Both the position numbers and the translations under genes were made by a program. From Limimonas halophila (GTDB lineage Bacteria > Pseudomonadota > Alphaproteobacteria > Kiloniellales > Rhodovibrionaceae): a stretch of 64,000 nt of DNA. Shown in pieces: positions 7,058 to 49,402 of this stretch (positions are counted from its first letter, which is position 1; every line of letters begins with the position of its first letter). The stretch lies in NCBI RefSeq assembly GCF_900100655.1, contig NZ_FNCE01000007.1, positions 1 through 64,000 on the forward strand. Direction: 5' to 3'. The notes beneath the pieces were generated by a model. That model did no database searches. It was not told the DNA's origin and saw only the letters and a list, made by a program, of their open reading frames with translations.

Positions 7058-7060
<3 letters not shown>

Positions 7061-7356
7061 ACACGAGCGTGTTAGCGCGCCGCTGGCGCGCGAGCTGAAG
7101 CTGTCAATCGCGTATGTCTTTCGACACCAGCGTCACGCCGAAATGGACGGTTTTCTCAATTCCAACATACCCGCCGGCCTCCGGGTCGGCGGGTAAACAC
7201 GTGGGTGTTTAATCCCATTCGTCATTCGACACCGGCATCTCGCGGCGATGAATGGGTCCCTCTAGCTCTCACACCCACCAGCCTTCGGGTCGGCGGGTAA
7301 ACGTTTGGACGTTTCATTCCATCCGCATCCCTGTGCGACAGCGCGGCATGCCGCCG
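7058..7356 (+). repeat. Modular hairpin repeat cluster A (after dnaJ)
   Basis: It begins in the dnaJ stop codon. In order: an AACAC/GTGTT hairpin (7060-7073), a GCGCGCC/GGCGCGC hairpin (7075-7091), repeat body A1 (about 7104-7158), a GC hairpin (7170-7193), a TAAACAC/GTGTTTA hairpin with GTGG loop (7194-7211), body A2 (7212-7262) and a decayed GC hairpin. It ends with an AAACGT/ACGTTT hairpin with TTGG loop (7299-7314) and a truncated third body. Body A2 folds on itself, CCCATTCGTC pairing with GATGAATGGG. The same modules recur near 20.7, 24.5 and 27.6 kb. Confidence 0.8.
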
Positions 7357-19627: not shown

Positions 19628-20686
19628 ATGGCCGATTCCCAGAACACCGGCACCACGCGCGGGCTGCTCGAGCGCCTCAACGAGGGCCCCGTGGTGTGCG
19701 CCGAGGGCTACCTCTTCGAGCTGGAGCGCCGCGGCTACCTCCAGGCCGGCAGCTTCGTGCCGGAGGTCGTCCTGGACCACCCCGAGGTCATGGAGCAGGT
19801 CCACCGCGACTTCACCCACGCCGGCTCCGACATCCAGCAGGCCTTCACCTACAACGGCACGCGCGAAAAGATGCGGATCATGGGCAAGGAGGACAAGCTG
19901 GAGCCCCTGAACCGCAACGCCCTGCGCATCGCCCGCAAGGTCGCCCGCGAAACCGACACCCTGCTGGCCGGCAACATCTGCAACAGCAACGTCTACGACC
20001 CCGAAAACCCGGACAGCGTGCGCGAAGCGCGCGAGATGTTCGAGGAGCAGGTTCAGTGGGCCGCCGAGGAAGGCGCCGACATGGTCATCGCCGAAACCTA
20101 CTCCTGGACCGGCGAGGCCAAGATGGCCCTCGACATCATCAAGAAGCACAACCTGCCGGCCGTCGTCACCATGGCCATGCACCGCGCGCCCCACACGCGC
20201 GACGGCGACACCCTCCCCGACGCCTGCAAGAAGCTGGAGGACGCCGGCGCCGACGTCGTGGGCCTGAACTGCATGCGCGGCCCCTGGACCATGCTGGAAA
20301 CCATCAAGGAAGTCCGGCAAAAGTGCTCCGGCCACGTCGCCGCCGTTCCGGTGCCCTACCGCACCAACGAGGAAGAGCCCACCTTCATGGCGCTGCGCGA
20401 CCACGTGTGCCCGCACCACGTGCCGGAAGGCCGTCCCTTCCCCACTGCCCTCGATCCCTTCCTCTGCAATCGCTACGAGGTCGAGGACTTCACGCGCCAG
20501 GCGCACGAGGCGGGCGTCGACTACTTCGGCCTGTGCTGCGGCTGCCAGCCCCACCTGCTGCGCTCCATGGCCGAGGCCCTGGGCCGCCGCCCCGAGGCCA
20601 GCAAGTACAGCCCCGACATGTCCAAGCACGCCTGGTTCGGCCAAGCCGCTCGCGACATCAACAAATCCTTCGCCGACGAACTTTAA
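19628..20686 (+). CDS. bmt: Betaine--homocysteine S-methyltransferase
   Basis: 352 residues. Uses glycine betaine to methylate homocysteine, giving methionine and dimethylglycine, which links osmolyte catabolism to methionine synthesis. The homocysteine-methyltransferase barrel is evident: VVCAEGYLFELERRGYL, QAFTYNGTREK, NICNSNVYDPENP, MVIAETYSWTGEAK, and the zinc ligands in VGLNCMRGPW plus the paired cysteines in YFGLCCGCQPH. Length and wording fit BHMT-type enzymes rather than MmuM. It stands alone, and its TAA is followed at once by a repeat clamp hairpin. Confidence 0.9.
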   Translation: MADSQNTGTTRGLLERLNEGPVVCAEGYLFELERRGYLQAGSFVPEVVLDHPEVMEQVHRDFTHAGSDIQQAFTYNGTREKMRIMGKEDKLEPLNRNALRIARKVARETDTLLAGNICNSNVYDPENPDSVREAREMFEEQVQWAAEEGADMVIAETYSWTGEAKMALDIIKKHNLPAVVTMAMHRAPHTRDGDTLPDACKKLEDAGADVVGLNCMRGPWTMLETIKEVRQKCSGHVAAVPVPYRTNEEEPTFMALRDHVCPHHVPEGRPFPTALDPFLCNRYEVEDFTRQAHEAGVDYFGLCCGCQPHLLRSMAEALGRRPEASKYSPDMSKHAWFGQAARDINKSFADEL

Positions 20687-21009
20687 CCAAAGATGATCTT
20701 TGGAAACGTGTGTCACTCGACACCGGCGTAACGTCGAAGCGAATGGGTTTCTCAAGCCCGGATACCCGCCGGCCTTCGGGTCGGCGGGTAAACTGTGGCA
20801 GTTTAATCCCATCTGTCACTCGACACCGGCGTAAACTCGAGGGTGTTTAATCCCCTCTATCATTCGAAACCGGCGTTCCGTCGAGATGAATGGGTCTCTC
20901 ACGACCTGTTGGCAGGTCGAACCCATTCGTCTCTCGACACCGACGTCGCGCCGAACCGGATGGGTTTCTCACGTTGAAGCGCCCGCCGACCTCAGGGTTG
21001 GCGGGCGCG
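20687..21009 (+). repeat. Modular hairpin repeat cluster B (after bmt)
   Basis: The densest cluster. It starts on the first base after the bmt stop with the clamp CCAAAGATGATCTTTGG (20687-20703). Then come body B1 (about 20708-20753), a GC hairpin (20765-20788), a TAAACTG/CAGTTTA hairpin (20789-20805), a short body B2 (20806-20832), an AAAC/GTTT hairpin (20833-20848) and body B3 (20850-20902). A GACCTG-TTGG-CAGGTC clamp (20903-20918), body B4 (20919-20973) and a GCGCCCGCC/GGCGGGCGC hairpin (20979-21008) close it. All bodies read in the same direction. Confidence 0.85.
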
Positions 21010-24448: not shown

Positions 24449-24660
24449 GCCGCGGCCTGTTGCCCCCCGGCAGGCCGCGGCAACCTGTTGGCAGGTTGAT
24501 CCCATCTGTCATTCGACACCAACGTCGCATCGGACATGAATGGGTCCCTCACGACCAAAGATGATCTTTGGACCAAGGATGATCCTTGGAACCATCTGTC
24601 ATTCGACATCGGCGTCGCATCGCGACGACTGGGGAACTCACGACCAAAAGATCCTCTTCA
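24449..24660 (+). repeat. Modular hairpin repeat cluster C (before polA)
   Basis: It opens with an 11-bp hairpin (24449-24459/24471-24481), then AACCTG-TTGG-CAGGTT (24482-24497) and body C1 (about 24498-24554). Two adjacent clamps follow, CCAAAGATGATCTTTGG (24555-24571) and CCAAGGATGATCCTTGG (24573-24589), then body C2 (about 24590-24645) and a decayed clamp. The two clamps differ by one base in each arm, exactly opposite, so pairing is kept. No gene lies between here and polA. Confidence 0.85.
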
Positions 24661-24798
24661 CGTGCAGCAAACATACCCAGGCATCGCCGACGACATAACG
24701 TGGCGTTGGACGTCGCCGCTCAGAACCTCGAACAGATGCGATCCAACGCGCTTGCGTTGGTTGATGGAACCCGCGGCCCAAGCCATCCTCCACCCGTC
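24661..24798. other. polA leader
   Basis: 138 bases without a gene. The frame of polA stays open through it but encodes an unconserved, repeat-derived sequence. Confidence 0.4.
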
Positions 24799-27579
24799 AT
24801 GGCGGATCAGCACGACGAAACCTCCTCTGCGGGCGGCACCGGCGACGCGCCGGTGCGCCACCTCTATCTGGTGGACGGGGCGGGCTACATCTTCCGCGCC
24901 TACCACAAGCTGCCGGCGACGATGTCGCGCGCCGACGGCACGCCCACGCACGCGGCCTACGGCTTCACCAACATGCTGCTGAAGCTGCTGCGCGAGATCG
25001 GCGACCACGACGCCCTGGCCGTGGTCTTCGACGCCGACGGCCGCTCCTTCCGCAACGACATCTACGAGGCCTACAAGGCCAACCGGCCGCCCATGCCGGA
25101 GGATCTCAAACCCCAGATCGAGATCTGCCACGAGGCCGTGCGCGCCATGAACCTGCCCTGCCTGGAACAGCAGGGCTACGAGGCCGACGACATCATCGCC
25201 ACGCTCGCCCGCCGCGCCCAGGCCGCCGGGGCCGAGGTCACGATCGTCTCCTCCGACAAGGATCTCATGCAGCTCCTCGCCCACGGCGTGCGCATGCTGG
25301 ACCCCATGGACTTCCGCCCCATCGGCCGCGAGGACGTGGAAAAGAAGTTCGGCGTGCCGCCGGAAAAGGTCGTCGACGTCCAGGCGCTGTGGGGCGATTC
25401 CACCGACAATGTCCCCGGCGTCCCCGGCATCGGCCAGAAGATCGCCGCCCAATTGATCGAGGACTACGGCGACCTGGACACGCTTCTCACTCGCGCGGAC
25501 GAGATCAAGCAAAAGAAGCGTCGCGAGAACCTGCTGGAAAACGCCGAGCAGGCGCGCATCTCCCGCCGCCTCGTGCAGCTGTGCGAGGACATGGACCTGC
25601 GCGTCGACCTGAGCGAGCTGCGCCTGCGCGAGCCCGACAATGAGGCCCTGCGCCGCTTCCTCGCCGAGAACGAGTTCCACTCCATCATCAACCGCCTGGG
25701 CCTCGACAGCGAGGACGCGGAAACCCCGCCCGCGGAGGCCGAGGCCAGCTACGAGCTGGTGCAGGACCGCGCACGCCTCGACGCCTGGATCGCCGAAGCC
25801 GACCGCACCGGCCGCGTCGCCGTGGACCTGGAAACCACCTCGCTGGACGCCATGCGCGCCCGGCTGGTGGGCATCTGCCTCGCCACCGCGCCGGGCCGCG
25901 CCTGCTACGTCCCCGTCGGCCACACCGCCTCGGGCCGGCTGGACGACGAGCAGGCCGCGCCGCAACAGATCGACCGCGACGCGGCGCTCAAAGCCCTCAA
26001 GCCGCTCCTGGAGGATCCCGGCGTCCTCAAGATCGGGCAGAACATCAAGTACGACCGCGTCGTGCTGCTGAACCACGGCGTCGCGGTCACGCCGATCGAC
26101 GACACCATGCTGCTGTCCTACGTCCTCGAAGCCGGGCTGCACGGCCACGGCATGGACGAGCTGGCCCGCCACCACCTCAACATGGAAACCACGACCTACA
26201 AGGAGGTCGCGGGCACCGGGAAGAACCAGGTCACCTTCGACAAGGTGCCGCTGGACAAAGCGCGCGACTACGCCGCCGAGGACGCGGACATCACCTTCCG
26301 CCTGCACGCCGTGCTCAAGCCGCGCCTCGTGCCCGAGCACATGTGCACCGTCTACGAAACGCTGGAGCGGCCCCTCTCGGACGTGCTCGCGCGCATGGAG
26401 CGCGAGGGCATCAAGGTCGACCCGGCCGTGCTCAGCGAGATGTCGCGTGACTTCGGCGCGCGCATGCACGAGCTGGAGCAGGAGATCCACCGGCTGGCCG
26501 GGCACCCCTTCAACGTCGGCTCGCCCAAGCAGCTCGGCGAGGTGCTGTTCGACGAGCTGGGCCTGGAAGGCGGCAAGCGCGGCAAGTCCGGTACCTACTC
26601 CACCGACGCCGAGGTGCTCCAGGGCCTCGCCGCGCAGGGCCACGACCTGCCCGCGCGCGTGCTCGACTGGCGCCAGATCCAGAAGCTCAAATCCACCTAC
26701 ACCGACGCCCTGCAGGACGACATCAACCCCGAAACGGGGCGCATCCACACGGCCTATCAGCAGGCGGTCGCGTCCACCGGGCGGCTGTCCTCAACCGACC
26801 CCAACCTGCAGAACATCCCCATCCGCACCGAGGAAGGCCGCAAGATCCGCCAGGCCTTCATCGCCGAGGACGGGCACCAGCTTCTCTCGGTGGACTACAG
26901 CCAGATCGAGCTGCGCCTGGCCGCCCACGTCGCCGACGAGCCCAGCCTGAAGCAGGCCTTCCGCGACGACATCGACATTCACGCCAAGACCGCGTCCGAG
27001 GTCTTCGACGTGAAGCTGGAGGACATGGACGCGACCACGCGCCGCGCCGCCAAGGCCATCAACTTCGGCATCATCTACGGCATCTCGGCCTACGGCCTGT
27101 CGCAGAACCTGGGCGTCGACCAGAAGGCCGCGAAGCGCTACATCGACACCTACTTCGAGCGCTACCCGAACATCAAAGCCTACATGGACTCCATGCGCGC
27201 CTGGGCGCGCGAGCACGGCCACGTCACCACGATGTTCGGCCGGCGCATCCACATCCCCGAAATCCAGTCCAAGAGCTTCGCCCGCCGCAGCTTCGCTGAG
27301 CGCGCCGCCATCAACGCCCCCATCCAGGGCTCCGCCGCCGACATCATCAAGCGCGCCATGATCCGCCTGCCGGCCGCACTCGCCGACGCCGGCCTGTCCG
27401 CGCGCATGCTGCTCCAGGTCCACGACGAGCTGCTGTTCGAGGTGCCCGACGGCGAGATGGACGCCACGATCTCCGCCGTCCGCCGCGTCATGGAACACGC
27501 CCACGAACCCGCCGTGGACCTCACCGTGCCCCTCGAAGCCGAAGCCGGCACCGGCGCCTCCTGGGCCGCCGCTCATTAG
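24799..27579 (+). CDS. polA: DNA polymerase I
   Basis: 926 residues with all three activities. The 5'-3' exonuclease (about 1-300) shows LYLVDGAGYIFRAYH, GFTNMLLKLL, VVFDADGRSFRN, GYEADDIIATLA and GDSTDNVPGVPGIG. The 3'-5' proofreading site is intact, with D343 and E345 in VAVDLETTSLD. Polymerase motif A is DYSQIELRL (D699), motif B RRAAKAINFGIIYG, and motif C QVHDELLFE (H875, D876). It fills gaps in repair and removes Okazaki primers. The ATG at 24799 gives the family N-terminus. The stop abuts repeat cluster D. Confidence 0.99.
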   Translation: MADQHDETSSAGGTGDAPVRHLYLVDGAGYIFRAYHKLPATMSRADGTPTHAAYGFTNMLLKLLREIGDHDALAVVFDADGRSFRNDIYEAYKANRPPMPEDLKPQIEICHEAVRAMNLPCLEQQGYEADDIIATLARRAQAAGAEVTIVSSDKDLMQLLAHGVRMLDPMDFRPIGREDVEKKFGVPPEKVVDVQALWGDSTDNVPGVPGIGQKIAAQLIEDYGDLDTLLTRADEIKQKKRRENLLENAEQARISRRLVQLCEDMDLRVDLSELRLREPDNEALRRFLAENEFHSIINRLGLDSEDAETPPAEAEASYELVQDRARLDAWIAEADRTGRVAVDLETTSLDAMRARLVGICLATAPGRACYVPVGHTASGRLDDEQAAPQQIDRDAALKALKPLLEDPGVLKIGQNIKYDRVVLLNHGVAVTPIDDTMLLSYVLEAGLHGHGMDELARHHLNMETTTYKEVAGTGKNQVTFDKVPLDKARDYAAEDADITFRLHAVLKPRLVPEHMCTVYETLERPLSDVLARMEREGIKVDPAVLSEMSRDFGARMHELEQEIHRLAGHPFNVGSPKQLGEVLFDELGLEGGKRGKSGTYSTDAEVLQGLAAQGHDLPARVLDWRQIQKLKSTYTDALQDDINPETGRIHTAYQQAVASTGRLSSTDPNLQNIPIRTEEGRKIRQAFIAEDGHQLLSVDYSQIELRLAAHVADEPSLKQAFRDDIDIHAKTASEVFDVKLEDMDATTRRAAKAINFGIIYGISAYGLSQNLGVDQKAAKRYIDTYFERYPNIKAYMDSMRAWAREHGHVTTMFGRRIHIPEIQSKSFARRSFAERAAINAPIQGSAADIIKRAMIRLPAALADAGLSARMLLQVHDELLFEVPDGEMDATISAVRRVMEHAHEPAVDLTVPLEAEAGTGASWAAAH

Positions 27580-27898
27580 AACGCTTGGGCGTTTTATCCC
27601 TTCAGTCATTCGACACCGGCGTCTCGCCGGGATGAATGGGTCACTCACGACCAAAGATGATCTTTGGAAACGTCCGTCGCTCGACACCCGCGTATCACAG
27701 GGATGATTGGGTCACTCACGACCGAGAGTGCTGTTGCGAAGCAAATACCTCCGCGGCTCAGGACACCTCGAAGGGCAAAATGTCGCGGCGGTCTTGGGCA
27801 AGGTGCCGGTCTTCGACAGCGGCCGGCTTCGCGTCTTCGCGTCACGCATTTATACCGAGTAGGCTGGCATCGCCGTGCGACAGCGCGGTATGCTGCCG
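27580..27898 (+). repeat. Modular hairpin repeat cluster D (after polA)
   Basis: Starts on the base after the polA stop with an AACGC-TTGG-GCGTT hairpin (27580-27593) followed by TTTA. Then come body D1 (27596-27650), the clamp CCAAAGATGATCTTTGG (27651-27667) and body D2 (27668-27722). Further on, 27867-27898 (GCATC..CGTGCGACAGCGCGG..) matches 7325-7356 of cluster A with a few mismatches, so a second short module travels with the clusters. Confidence 0.8.
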
Positions 27899-45045: not shown

Positions 45046-46463
45046 ACGGCGGCTCGCTCCTCAAGGCTGTTCGGCGGACCCGCGCCGTGCACCCCGTGCG
45101 CCGACGCTCCGTCCCATGTGGATGTGGCGACCCGCCCGCGCAAGCTGTTGGGGTGGGCTTCCGTGATGTCGACCTCGACCATGCGGCCGATGAGGCGGTC
45201 GGGCGCGTCCACGTGCACCGGCTGCATGTAGGGGCTGCGCCCGATGAGCTGGCCGGGGCGCTTGCCGTGCCCGTCGAACAGAACGGGCAGGCGCATGCCC
45301 ACGGTGCGGTGGTTGAAGGCGTGGCCCTGCTCGCCGAGCAATTGCTGCAGGCCGTGCAGACGCTCCGTCTTCACCGCCTCCGGCACGGCTTCCTCGGTGT
45401 TCATGGCCGCCGGCGTGCCCGGGCGCGGGCTGTACTTGAAGGCGTAGTTGTGGGCGAAGCCGACGTCGGCGATCAGGCGCAGGCTTTCCGCGTGGTCCTC
45501 GGCGGTTTCGCCCGGGTGGCCGACGATGAAGTCGGACGCCATGGCGATGTCGGGGCGCAGCTCGCGCACGCGCTCGACGATGCGGCGGTAGTGGTCCGCC
45601 GTGTGGCCGCGGTTCATGGCCTTGAGCACGCGGTCGGAGCCGCTCTGCACGGGCAGGTGCAGGAAGGGCATGAGCTGCGGCACGTCGCGGTGCGCGGTGA
45701 GCAGCTCGTCGTCCATGTCCTTGGGGTGGGAGGTGGTGTAGCGGATGCGCTGGACGCCCTCGATCTCCGCCAGCTCGCGGATCAGGCGGCCCAGGCCCCA
45801 TTCGCGCCCGTCCGGGCCCTCGCCGTGGTAGGCGCTGACGTTCTGGCCCAGCAGCACGATCTCCTGGCTGCCCGAGGCGACGAGCCCTCGCGCCTCCGCC
45901 AGCACGGTGTTCACCGGGCGGGAGAACTCGGCCCCGCGCGTGTAGGGGACGACGCAGAAGGTGCAGAACTTGTCGCAGCCCTCCTGCACCGAGAGGTAGG
46001 CACTCGGCCCCTGGGGCTGGCGCTCTTCGGGCAGGTGGTCGAACTTGTCCTCGACGGGGAAGTCGGTGTCGAGGATGCCGCGCCCCGGGCGCGAGCGTTC
46101 CGCCTTCGCAATGAGCTCGGGCAGGCGGTGGTAGGTCTGCGGGCCGACGACGACGTCCACCTGCGGCGCGCGCTCCAGGATTTCCTCGCCCTCGGCCTGG
46201 GCGACGCAGCCGGCGACGGCGAGCAGCGTGCGCCCGCCGTTGGCGGCCTTGGCGTCCTGGATGTGGCGCATGCGGCCGAGCTCGGAATACACCTTCTCCG
46301 CGGCCTTTTCGCGGATGTGGCAGGTGTTGAGCAGGATGAGGTCGGCGTCGTCGGGTTCGTCCGACAGCGTGTAGCCGAGCGGCGCCAGCACGTCCGCCAT
46401 GCGGGCGGAATCGTAGACGTTCATCTGGCAGCCGTAGGTCTTGATGTAGAGCTTCCTGGTCAC
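45042..46463 (-). CDS. miaB: tRNA-2-methylthio-N6-isopentenyladenosine synthase
   Basis: 473 residues. Radical-SAM enzyme adding a methylthio group to i6A37 of tRNA. The N-terminal cluster domain has [22 protein letters not shown] and a third cysteine in VAGCVAQ. The radical-SAM CxxxCxxC motif is CDKFCTFC, with VQEGCDKF just before it; [31 protein letters not shown] and [14 protein letters not shown] are typical. The C-terminal TRAM domain reads [19 protein letters not shown]. Confidence 0.98.
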
Positions 46464-46567
46464 GGCGGTTCGTGTCCGCTCCCGACGGTCGTGCGTGGCA
46501 ATGGTGTTGGCGTGCTGCCCGGAAGCCTAACACCGGCCTTCGATGGGTCCAATGAAGGGTTGGGTGA

Positions 46568-46750
46568 CGGCGTTGGGACGCGCTGCTCACTTTCGCCGCC
46601 TTCGACGCCAATGTGAAGGAACTTCGCGGTGCAGGGGGTTACCGCCTACGGGTGGGAAATTACCGCGTACTCTTCACACGTCATGACGGTGAGCCCTACA
46701 TCGTGTTCGTGTACGCCGCCGCGCATCGGAGAGACGTCTATGAGCACTGA
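46568..46750 (+). pseudogene. Truncated RelE/ParE-type toxin
   Basis: Reading from just after an in-frame stop at 46565, about 60 codons give the C-terminal core of a RelE-type ribonuclease toxin: ANVKELRGAGGYRLRVGNYR, then VLF, then a closing FVYAAAHRRDVYEH. The normal first 30 or so residues and any ATG start are missing, so the gene is truncated. Its end overlaps the start of the antitoxin gene by 11 bases, the usual toxin-antitoxin coupling. Confidence 0.75.
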
Positions 46751-47084
46751 TGCAGCGCCGGTGTCGCGCGATCAATACGACGCGATGGTGGAACGCTTGG
46801 CCGACCTGGAGGATACGGTCGCGCTGTTGCAGGCGCGCTTGCAGGAAGATGGCCCCGGCATTCCGGCCGAGGTGCTGCGCGCGGAGTTGGACGGGGTGCA
46901 TCTCCTCACGGCGTGGCGCGAAAACTTGGGGATGACGGCGCGTGATCTCGCCGCGCGGGCCGGTGTGAGCGCGACCTACCTTTCGGAAATCGAGACGGGG
47001 CGCAAGCCAGGGTCCACGAGCGCCTACCGGGCGCTTTCAAGCGCGCTGGACGTTCCGATGGACTATCTCGTGCCGGACGAGTGA
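46740..47084 (+). CDS. XRE-family antitoxin partner of the truncated toxin
   Basis: 114 residues. An N-terminal coiled coil (about 8-40, YDAMVERLADLEDTVALLQA) resembles the toxin-binding part of RelE-linked antitoxins. The C-terminal helix-turn-helix (about 60-114) reads AWRENLGMTARDLAARAGVS, then ATYLSEIETGRKPG, then YRALSSALDVPMDYL. With the toxin fragment directly upstream this is a RelE-Xre type pair in which only the DNA-binding antitoxin survives. It may still repress its own promoter. Confidence 0.88.
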   Translation: MSTDAAPVSRDQYDAMVERLADLEDTVALLQARLQEDGPGIPAEVLRAELDGVHLLTAWRENLGMTARDLAARAGVSATYLSEIETGRKPGSTSAYRALSSALDVPMDYLVPDE

Positions 47085-47129
47085 CGCTGGACGTCGCGGC
47101 CAGAGGCACCTGTGTCGGCTGGCACGTTC

Positions 47130-47275
47130 CCCAAGACAGCCCCGGTATCCCGGTTCGCACCTGCTGTCCGCCTGACAGGTGCGATAAAACACGCTGTGTT
47201 TTCCCAAGACAGCCCCGATATCTCGGTTCGCACCCGCAGTCCGACTGACTGGAGCGATAAAACACGCTGTGTTTT
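47130..47275. repeat. 73-bp direct repeat, two tandem copies
   Basis: Units 47130-47202 and 47203-47275 match over most of their length. Each opens with CCCAAGACAGCCCCG and ends with AAAACACGCTGTGTTTT, itself a hairpin (7-bp stem, GCT loop). The first unit also has a CACCTG/CAGGTG stem. The last TT of unit 2 with the next A supplies the plsC stop codon on the minus strand. No spacer-repeat order, so it is not CRISPR. Confidence 0.85.
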
Positions 47276-48098
47276 AGGCGGCTTTTTTGAGGGAGGCGTC
47301 GATGTCGGCTTGGCGGCCGGCGAGGGATTCGGAGACGCCGCGGGCGACGGTCTGGTGGCAGGCCTGGGACATGGCCTTGCGGGAGCTGAAGTCGTCGATG
47401 GTGACGGGGGCGTGGAAGGTCACTTCGACGGTGATCGTGCCCAGGCCGAGCATGTTCCACATGTGCGGGGCGATATCCATGTCGCCGTACCAGGCGACGA
47501 AGGGGCGCAGGTAGCGGCCCATGGGGACACCGTCGAGCTTGGTGTAGGCGACGGAGACGGGCTGGACGGTGACGGGCCGGCCGTGCGGGCGCTTTTCGGC
47601 CACGGAGAAGAGGGCGCTGCGGAAGGGCAGCACGCGGTTGCCGTCGTCGCTGGTGCCTTCGGGAAAGAGGATGAGACGGTCGCCGGCTTCCAGGCGGCGG
47701 GTCATCTCGTCGCGCTGGCTGGCGGTGCGCCCGCGCCGGCGGTCGACGAAGACGGTGCGCTGGAGCTTGGCGAGCCAGCCGAAGAAGGGCCAGTCGGCGA
47801 TTTCCGCCTTGGCGACGAAGGAGCCCTCGATGAGGGCGCCGAGGACGGTGATGTCCAGGTAGGAGGTGTGGTTGCTGACGATCAGGGCGGGCCGCGTGTC
47901 GACGGGCTGGCCGTGCTGGACGAGCTTGAGCCCGAGCAGGCGCAGGCAGCGCTGATGGTACCAGCGCGGCAGGCGGTGCATCAGCGGCATCTGCAGCGCG
48001 ACGGCCGCGGCCTGGACCACCATGAGCGGCAGGGTGAAGCCGGCATAGACGAGGAGCCGGAAGAACGCCCGCGTCGGCGAGCCGAAGGCGACCTGCAT
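47274..48098 (-). CDS. olsA: Lysophospholipid/ornithine-lipid acyltransferase (PlsC/OlsA-like)
   Basis: 274 residues. One or two N-terminal membrane helices (about 12-37), then the acyltransferase motifs NHTSYLD (H-x4-D), KAEIADWPFFGWLAK, DRRRGR and FPEGTSDDG. PlsC enzymes acylate lyso-lipids at the inner membrane. Seven bases after an OlsB-like gene, it most likely converts lyso-ornithine lipid to ornithine lipid, although 1-acylglycerol-3-phosphate as substrate is not excluded. The Ala/Lys end of the protein runs into the 73-bp repeat. Confidence 0.85.
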   Translation of the reverse strand: MQVAFGSPTRAFFRLLVYAGFTLPLMVVQAAAVALQMPLMHRLPRWYHQRCLRLLGLKLVQHGQPVDTRPALIVSNHTSYLDITVLGALIEGSFVAKAEIADWPFFGWLAKLQRTVFVDRRRGRTASQRDEMTRRLEAGDRLILFPEGTSDDGNRVLPFRSALFSVAEKRPHGRPVTVQPVSVAYTKLDGVPMGRYLRPFVAWYGDMDIAPHMWNMLGLGTITVEVTFHAPVTIDDFSSRKAMSQACHQTVARGVSESLAGRQADIDASLKKAA

Positions 48099-48105
48099 GG
48101 CGCCC

Positions 48106-48921
48106 TCACCCCTCCGATTTGTCGTCGCGCGTCAGGTGGCGGACGTAGCGGTCGGTGACGAGGTCGGTCTTCACCACCACGCAGACGTCGGTGGTGTTGA
48201 AATCTTGGTCCACCACGGCGCCGTCGCCGACGAAGCCGCCCAGGCGCAGGTAGCCCTTGAGGAGCGGCGGCAGCTTGGCCGCCGCGCGGCGCGGCTTGAA
48301 GGCGTCCGGGTCCAGGCGGTTCATGTCCACGTAGAGATCCGGCCGCGCGACGGGGCGCAACGCGGGCGGGGCGAGGTGATGGTGGTAGAGGTAGGCGAGC
48401 TGCTCGCCGAGCGCGTCGGGGTCGGTGCCCAGCATGGACGCGCAGCCGAACATCAGGTGCACGTCGAAGTGCAGCACGTAGGCGGCGATGCCGCGCCAGA
48501 GCAGCTGCATCGTGGCGCCGGTGCGGTGATCGGCGGCGACGCAGGAGCGGCCGAGCTCCATGATCTCGCCGGGATAGGCCAGCAGCGCGTCGATGTCGTA
48601 TTCGTCGCTGGTGTAGAACTGCCCGGCGCGCTCGGCCTGCTCGCGGCGCATCAGGCGGTAGGTGCCGATGACGCCCTCGGGCCCGTCGGCGATGGCGGTG
48701 TCGAAGACGAGGAGATGGTCCGCGTGAGCATCGTAGGCGTCGAACTCGCGCCCGGTTTCCCGCTGCTCCGGCGTGGGCGTGGCGTTGCGCTCGGTCACGA
48801 AGACCGCATAGCGCAGCCGCTGCGACGCCTGGATCTCCGCGTCGGTTTCGGCAAGGCGGATGCGCAGGTTCCCCGATTCAACCTGAACGGGCCGCTGCGC
48901 GTCCTCGTGCGATGCCTGCAT
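48106..48921 (-). CDS. olsB: L-ornithine N-alpha-acyltransferase (OlsB-like GNAT)
   Basis: 271 residues. Transfers a 3-hydroxyacyl group from ACP to ornithine, the first step to phosphate-free ornithine lipids. The family pattern is clear: LAETDAEIQASQRLRYAVFV, EFDAYDAHADHLLVFD, IGTYRLMRREQA, YTSDEYDID, IMELGRSCVAADHR and LMFGCASMLGTDP, ending with FNTTDVCVVV. The ATG at 48921 has GGAG nine bases upstream; an ATG at 48930 is an alternative. It is followed by the partner acyltransferase. Confidence 0.85.
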   Translation of the reverse strand: MQASHEDAQRPVQVESGNLRIRLAETDAEIQASQRLRYAVFVTERNATPTPEQRETGREFDAYDAHADHLLVFDTAIADGPEGVIGTYRLMRREQAERAGQFYTSDEYDIDALLAYPGEIMELGRSCVAADHRTGATMQLLWRGIAAYVLHFDVHLMFGCASMLGTDPDALGEQLAYLYHHHLAPPALRPVARPDLYVDMNRLDPDAFKPRRAAAKLPPLLKGYLRLGGFVGDGAVVDQDFNTTDVCVVVKTDLVTDRYVRHLTRDDKSEG

Positions 48922-48979
48922 GGGGACCATCTCCGGCTTCGACACCGGCCGGGGCCGGTCCGTCGCCCCGCCGCCGGGG

Positions 48980-49402
48980 TTAGCTGTTGGCGCCGCTGCG
49001 GCGCTTGCCCAGGCCGATTTCCTTGGCCAGGCGGCTGCGCTCGGCGGCGTAGTTGGGCGCAACCATGGGGTAGTTGGGCGACAGGCCCCACTTCTCCCGG
49101 TACTGCTCGGGCGTCATGTTGTAGGCGGTCTTGAGATGCCGCTTGAGCATCTTGAGCTTTTTGCCGTCTTCCAGGCAGACGATGTAGTCGGGCGTGACGG
49201 ACTTGTTGATCGGCACGGCCGGGGTGGGGCGCTCGGCCTGCTGCTGCGGCGCGCCGCCGTTCTCCACCTGGGACAGCGTGGTGTAGACGTTGCGGATCAG
49301 CTTGCGCAGATCGTCCACGGCCAGGGTGTTGTTGGCGACATGCGCGGCAACGATGTCGGTCGTCAGGTTGAGAAGGGTATCGCTCGTCGTTTGTTCGGCC
49401 AT
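48980..49402 (-). CDS. mucR: MucR/Ros family zinc-finger transcriptional regulator
   Basis: 140 residues. Typical of alphaproteobacteria, where MucR proteins regulate exopolysaccharide, motility and cell-cycle genes and act as H-NS-like silencers of AT-rich DNA. The N-terminal helices mediate oligomerisation. The zinc-finger region reads TPDYIVCLEDGKKLKMLKRH, followed by LKTAYNMTPEQYREKWGL, and the basic C-terminus contains NYAAERSRLAKEIGLGKRR. Adjacent AT-rich DNA at 49470-49482 may be its own operator. Confidence 0.95.
   Translation of the reverse strand: MAEQTTSDTLLNLTTDIVAAHVANNTLAVDDLRKLIRNVYTTLSQVENGGAPQQQAERPTPAVPINKSVTPDYIVCLEDGKKLKMLKRHLKTAYNMTPEQYREKWGLSPNYPMVAPNYAAERSRLAKEIGLGKRRSGANS

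Follow-up and report, generated by a model that had tools for sequence, protein, structure and literature searches.

A tandem 73-bp repeat of Limimonas halophila belongs to a REP-like family of mosaic repeats with base-paired heads at gene ends, a candidate mRNA element

It has long been asked whether the palindromic repeats at bacterial gene ends are functional mRNA elements or remnants of selfish DNA. PMC3733652 places REPs close to 3' ends and describes those of the RAYT-associated GTAG superfamily as short, multicopy palindromes that lie mainly 3' of genes and often supply a TAG stop codon; the supply of a stop is thus not new in itself. For the CGTC superfamily, found mostly in Alphaproteobacteria, the same paper reports loops of 4-5 nt, heterogeneous stems and no known dedicated transposase. 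E. coli REPs lying 15 nt or less from the stop are said to stall ribosomes, leading to mRNA cleavage (Liang 2015, cited in PMC12306157); in the citing paper such stop-proximal REPs are a minority, 446 of 4,072. Finally, the TAACTGA direct repeats of Beggiatoaceae are, according to PMC4679880, dispersed heptamer arrays that carry stops in all forward frames and overlap some gene ends, but are mostly intergenic and oriented to downstream start codons.

The 73-bp tandem repeat of L. halophila described here belongs to a family whose units, about 70-95 nt long, consist of a hairpin head and a body that is exchangeable between units. Being short palindromes, extragenic, present in tens to hundreds of copies and mostly 3' of genes, these are REPs in the broad sense. 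They often supply the stop, as the GTAG REPs do; like the CGTC REPs they have loops of 4-5 nt, heterogeneous stems and no known dedicated transposase. Unlike GTAG REPs, however, the heads carry no unpaired GTAG tag (the flank on the other strand reads [G/C]GAT), the genome has no Y1 transposase (RAYT), and the mosaic units form head-to-tail arrays. Indeed, among 146 units, neighbours within 260 nt were on the same strand in 64 cases, facing in 4 and back to back in none, whereas GTAG and CGTC dimers are predominantly head-to-head. In comparison with CGTC REPs, no CGTC, TGTC or CCTC stands flush to the stem, the stem is of 7 bp instead of 8-9, and the tail reads ATC[C/G]C instead of CCA. There is a faint likeness to a CGTC repeat in the TGTCATTC...GAAT of one body type, body B, but that helix shows no covariation. 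With the stop-proximal REPs of E. coli the family shares a hairpin close behind the stop and a proposed effect on terminating ribosomes, but here the position is the usual one, with 51 of 78 first heads near a stop and 37 overlapping it or directly behind it. The Beggiatoaceae repeats are likewise dispersed, stop-carrying and found at some gene ends, and differ in sequence and layout. A literature search, with most subscription papers outside its coverage, found no published description of the family.

The window (the whole stretch of DNA that was analysed, 64,000 nucleotides) contains the focal repeat at 47130-47275, which TRF reports with period 73, 2.0 copies, 90% matches and a score of 243, unsurpassed among the 18 rows that it lists for the window. 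The two units are identical at 66 of 73 positions, and the hairpin AAAACACGCTGTGTTTT is present exactly at both 47186-47202 and 47259-47275, against a mean of 0.01 matches (up to 3 mismatches) in shuffled sequence. A sequence-only reading of the window had described these two adjacent units and their exactly conserved hairpin, and we confirm both. The stop codon of the neighbouring minus-strand gene, named plsC in that reading, is the TAA at 47276-47274, with which the first head, TAAAACACAGCGTGTTTTATCGC, begins. The repeat contains two of the three bases of this TAA and, as had been proposed, does supply the stop. Read on the minus strand, the order is acyltransferase TAA and first head, body, second head, body, and this is the meaningful orientation of the repeat. 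The features are as follows.

47277..48098, minus strand: upstream gene, OlsA/PlsC-like acyltransferase, stop excluded
47274..47276, minus strand: TAA stop codon ending the OlsA-like gene; overlaps the first head
47199..47276, minus strand: unit adjoining the gene, with body A; the next head takes the place of its distal part (R1, 60.3 bits)
47259..47275, minus strand: head hairpin of the first unit, AAAACAC / AGC / GTGTTTT
47254..47258, minus strand: tail of the first head, ATCGC, its GC complementing the GC of the loop
47114..47203, minus strand: second unit, with body A, full length (R1, 76.1 bits)
47186..47202, minus strand: head hairpin of the second unit
47181..47185, minus strand: tail of the second head, ATCGC

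The names given earlier to the flanking genes need some revision. The "plsC" product comes closest to the profile of OlsA, a lyso-ornithine lipid acyltransferase (290.2 bits, slightly under the cut-off of 300); the profile end is reached 11 residues ahead of the protein end. The adjoining gene is OlsB-like (276.8 bits, cut-off 350), and the two genes (47274-49062, minus strand) are likely an ornithine-lipid pair. The "antitoxin" gene encodes an HTH protein of the HTH_31/HTH_3 families. Upstream of it, the translation of 46592-46747 (plus strand) recalls by eye the end of a RelE-type toxin, with the start absent; Pfam gave no match for this stretch. Two relatives (G001 and G002, 71% and 65% identical) gave no R1 match, and their acyltransferase C-termini are longer and unrelated, so that the site says little about insertion.

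The 150-bp focal stretch gave 27 BLAST matches at E<=10 in its own 3.04 Mb genome, self and several weak matches included. A covariance model of body-A units (R1, built from 19 units) gave 93 matches at E<=10 and 44 at E<=1e-5, and a sequence-only model of body-B units (R2, built from 24 units) gave 111 at E<=10. Merging led to 149 placements, weak ones included, from 176 of the 204 R1 and R2 matches; of the 28 left out, 1 was from R1 and 27 from R2, the latter at E about 0.002 to 4 and many repeating R1 places. Sequence was available for 147 placements, of which 104 were class I and 43 were not (19 class II, 24 unassigned). The 104 class I heads were reduced to 82 by dropping 22 (class II heads and fits with two or more mismatches), 78 of them distinct. 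In the fit used for counting wobble pairs, no hairpin could be fitted to 21 units. The family counts are probably lower bounds, since contig ends lie in units. Units were seen at or near the ends of contigs C1, C5, C11, C16, C19, C22, C23, C24, C25 and C26, and also at C7:161440, so the draft assembly probably breaks at them.

The sequence-only reading had suggested a second repeat family, resembling another one in the window by layout and not by sequence. The many relatives bear out the first part and the likeness of layout stands, but the two are not unrelated: the hairpin and ATC[C/G]CNNCNGTCA are common to both, and the other family is the body-B branch of one superfamily, sharing the head. 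The related elements of the superfamily in the window, detected with R2 and with a head-only model (R3), are the following.

7194..7262, plus strand: related unit with body B (R2, 66.5 bits; head by R3)
7298..7329, plus strand: related head (R3, 26.1 bits)
20686..20970, plus strand: related array of four body-B units after the TAA of a gene (R2, R3)
24481..24639, plus strand: two related body-B units (R2, R3)
24729..24760, minus strand: related head with body C (R3, 39.2 bits)
27578..27717, plus strand: two related body-B units after the TAG of a gene (R2, R3)

The head module is common to units with body A, B, C and a fourth type (C2:16870). In the reading direction of the focal minus strand, it consists of a 7-bp AT-rich stem NAAACNN/NNGTTTN with a loop of 3-5 nt, followed by ATC, two further letters and, in most cases, NNCNGTCA. 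The symmetric AAAC/GTTT core is almost invariant, and letters vary at stem positions 1, 6 and 7. Over the 56 heads with a loop of 4, and counting the loop-tail pairs, 97.4% of cells are paired (72.5% in shuffles) and 125 cells differ on both sides (36.6 in shuffles); neither figure was reached by any of 500 shuffles. Slid partners pair at only 33-48%. The number of pair types is no higher than in shuffles (77 of 500 reach the observed number). As a control for circularity, heads were chosen by their 3' half alone: a perfect 7-bp upstream partner was found in 58 of 74 distinct heads and one with a single mismatch in 9, and the 5' half of another unit was perfect in 3.4%. For heads found by a sequence-only model, the partner was perfect in 24 of 31 (control 4.7%).

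In addition, in 72 of the 78 distinct heads the final two loop letters are complementary to the two that follow ATC (20,000 shuffles: mean 35.7, maximum 52). The combinations obeying this rule are GG/CC (37), GC/GC (33), AC/GT (1) and GT/AC (1); the exceptions are GC/CC (2) and AG/CC, TC/GC, GC/GG and GG/GC (1 each). By body, the rule holds in 25/26 heads with body A, 32/32 with B, 9/10 with C and 6/10 of the rest, so that four of the six exceptions are among the 10 heads of untyped body. The tail reads A in 78 of 78, T in 70, C in 73, and then C in 40 or G in 37. One of the two loop-tail pairs hardly varies in the loop-4 set, its position changing only in rare loop-3 heads, and the loop-tail covariation is therefore essentially that of one base pair. 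Hairpins were fitted at 7 bp; allowing stems up to 9 bp blurs the loop-tail register. Three nucleotides spanning a 7-bp stem are tight for a pseudoknot in cis. The class II hairpin of body-B arrays, CCAAAGA-TGA-TCTTTGG, pairs perfectly in 23 of 30 distinct cases and, in the 7-bp register, departs from the loop-tail rule.

Position at stop codons was judged for 78 of the 81 heads that come first in an array, coding-like ORFs being recognised from codon usage, for which 31 long ORFs in the window served as the training set. A coding-like stop lay at -4 to +17 nt of the anchor in the 51 heads given above, the 37 having it at -4 to +1; the remaining 27 have none in this range. When the anchors were shifted by -120, -60, 60, 120 and 200 nt, the counts fell to 2, 2, 0, 0 and 0 of 76-78, and on the opposite strand from the same anchor a coding-like stop was found in 1 of 76. 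TAA makes up 29 of the 51 head-associated stops, against 57 of 215 for coding-like ORFs in the DNA retrieved around the elements, the latter including the genes with elements. Heads are able to close a reading frame via TAAAC, ACTGA or GTTTAA.

An NCBIfam scan covered 20 of the 51 upstream ORFs, ten stopping at the head start and ten inside the head. GyrB (529 of 529), HslU (497 of 497) and YchF (380 of 380) terminate exactly at the profile end. The last or last-but-one profile position was reached for SSADH (480 of 481), TrpS (500 of 502), PurB (457 of 462), LeuC (496 of 505) and propionate/acetate-CoA ligase (647 of 655), the first four with 1-9 extra residues. IlvC (339 of 341), UDP-glucose dehydrogenase (444 of 445) and SpoVR (513 of 521) fall short of the profile end by 3, 8 and 9. 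For the other scanned proteins a full-length model was absent or only distant models matched. Since profile ends are reached, the upstream genes look complete, with the heads at or a few codons behind their native ends.

The 82 arrays comprise 39 single units, 27 of two, 11 of three and 5 of four units, with usual spacings of 70-75 and 44 nt; the 5' flank of a head is either a stop codon or a varied array junction. No covariation was found in the bodies. Three helices drawn by eye in body B were dropped, showing none, and RNAalifold recovered only the head in body-A units and nothing in body-B units. The fourth body type was seen at C2:16870-17056, in a tandem array (about 77 bp) that has the common head and, by eye, a long stem in the body.

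The genus is represented only by this genome. R1 gave no match in the two other family members, and at E<=1e-4 it matched none of 60 other genomes belonging to the order. R3 gave 82 matches at E<=0.001 in its own genome; 58 others from the order had none. The order-wide searches with both models used stricter filters, at which some weak matches are lost. An exact 21-mer of body A matched once in the GTDB collection, in a MAG contig; this was judged a chance match, because no head is visible alongside and the R1 match spans only 34 nt.

No mobilising enzyme for the family was found in the genome. The Y1 transposase profile PF01797 had no match there and matched in 5 of 14 control genomes. The one match to a reverse transcriptase lies within a group II intron (L155 801-2595, contig C9), and group II intron domains were found at this locus and at none of the copies in 12 Rfam-scanned sources. 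Retro-mobilisation was rejected, the sole reverse transcriptase being that of the intron, with no link to the heads. The intron lies shortly behind a G+C-rich hairpin and T-run at about L155 684-715.

On balance, we lean towards reading the 73-bp repeat as two head-to-tail units of a lineage-specific, REP-like mosaic 3'-end repeat, one strand of which, probably the mRNA, would fold and thereby affect translation termination or mRNA decay. The letters of a head vary while their pairing is kept, and bodies are sequence-conserved and exchangeable. The first unit of an array mostly sits at the stop of the upstream same-strand gene, often supplying it. A head so placed is at or inside the footprint of the terminating ribosome. 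It would then be held inside or against the ribosome during termination and could fold, just behind the stop, only after the ribosome departs. By analogy with what is reported for stop-proximal E. coli REPs, the folded head could slow termination or recycling, or hinder 3'-to-5' decay. Spread may have involved a putative mobilisation process followed by head-to-tail amplification. A wider proposal is more tentative: covarying heads with loop-to-tail (pseudoknot-like) pairing, placed specifically at stops, might form a genome-wide 3'-end regulon in one lineage, its spread coupled to reading-frame ends either through targeting or because an effect on termination and mRNA decay was selected. We consider this possible but doubtful. 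With head letters that vary by copy, and pairing and stop position that are kept, the family is a natural mutagenesis set within one genome, with dozens of genes at which to compare paired with imperfect heads, GG/CC with GC/GC heads, and single with multiple tandem units.

The units may instead be selfish DNA only, the head being a single-stranded DNA hairpin recognised by a transposase (REP/RAYT or IS200/IS605-like) with no host function; copies would survive at stops because an insertion that brings its own stop is harmless there. The restriction to one genome (of 61 searched with R1 and 59 with R3, its own included), the mosaic bodies, the head-to-tail arrays and the frame-closing motifs of the heads are all consistent with this, and GTAG REPs too are reported to supply stops (PMC3733652). 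Nor does folding single out the mRNA strand. The 164 nt of 47127-47290 fold better than shuffles on both strands (z -4.07 plus, z -3.58 minus; 0 of 200 shuffles each), so that whole-region folding picks neither, and a longer minus-strand piece of 211 nt gives z -1.69 (14 of 200 shuffles). In the minus-strand fold of the 164 nt the two identical heads pair with each other and form no separate hairpins. Sense G.T against A.C pairs number 7 to 2 in class I heads and 1 to 6 in class II. However, the genome has no Y1 transposase, neutral survival predicts an intergenic spread and not 37 of 78 heads in a 6-nt window, and neutral decay would erode the pairing that is kept despite differing letters. 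We regard a purely selfish origin as a serious reading but not a likely one.

An intrinsic, possibly bidirectional, transcription terminator, as the sequence-only reading had proposed, is unlikely. The focal site does have an AT-flanked palindrome between convergent genes, and 31 of the 82 arrays face a convergent coding region (40 are co-directional and 11 undecided). A terminator scan gave one weak plus-strand site with a T-rich tail, 47266-47282, which overlaps the stop-proximal head (1 found, 0.3 expected), but called neither head. Intrinsic terminators have a G+C-rich stem followed by a T-run; the heads have short, AT-rich stems (folding energies of -4.7 to -9.7 kcal/mol in six heads), the 3' arm of which is followed by ATC[C/G]C. 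The overlap with stop codons and the strong orientation bias (51/78 following a same-strand gene, 1/76 on the opposite strand) also argue against it. Scanned against Rfam 15 at gathering score, the complete window plus 11 loci that carry other copies yielded only the tRNA at 2403-2475; at E<=5, 46400-48200 gave one sub-threshold SECIS_2 match, outside the repeat.

The hairpin could also be no more than the dyad symmetry of a double-stranded DNA site bound by a dimeric protein, and the nearly fixed, symmetric AAAC/GTTT core and equal folding of both strands would agree with this. Stem positions 1, 6 and 7 nevertheless change with complementarity kept, and the letters of loop and tail change together, which suits the folding of one strand better than fixed contacts; such a site seems quite improbable. 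Finally, a local tandem duplication without wider meaning would account for two adjacent units identical at 66/73 positions, but this reading is refuted by the genome searches and their many dispersed relatives with different heads. The sequence-only reading had named the lack of any other genomic copy as what would leave only a local duplication, and the searches found the opposite.

Two further observations concern the surroundings of heads. At window positions 7060-7120 and at C19:20797, C19:20932 and C5:389 (L016, L032), heads are seemingly split, with about 32 nt similar to AGCGCGCCNNNGGCGCGCGAGCTGAAGCTG separating the hairpin from its ATC[C/G]C. At C3:77251, C3:88023, C5:12002 and C7:111582 (e.g., L020 and L011), a longer palindrome ending in AATCCGCC stands directly before the head; where whole it reads TAGGGCGGATT...AATCCGCC, and it is perhaps another repeat family.
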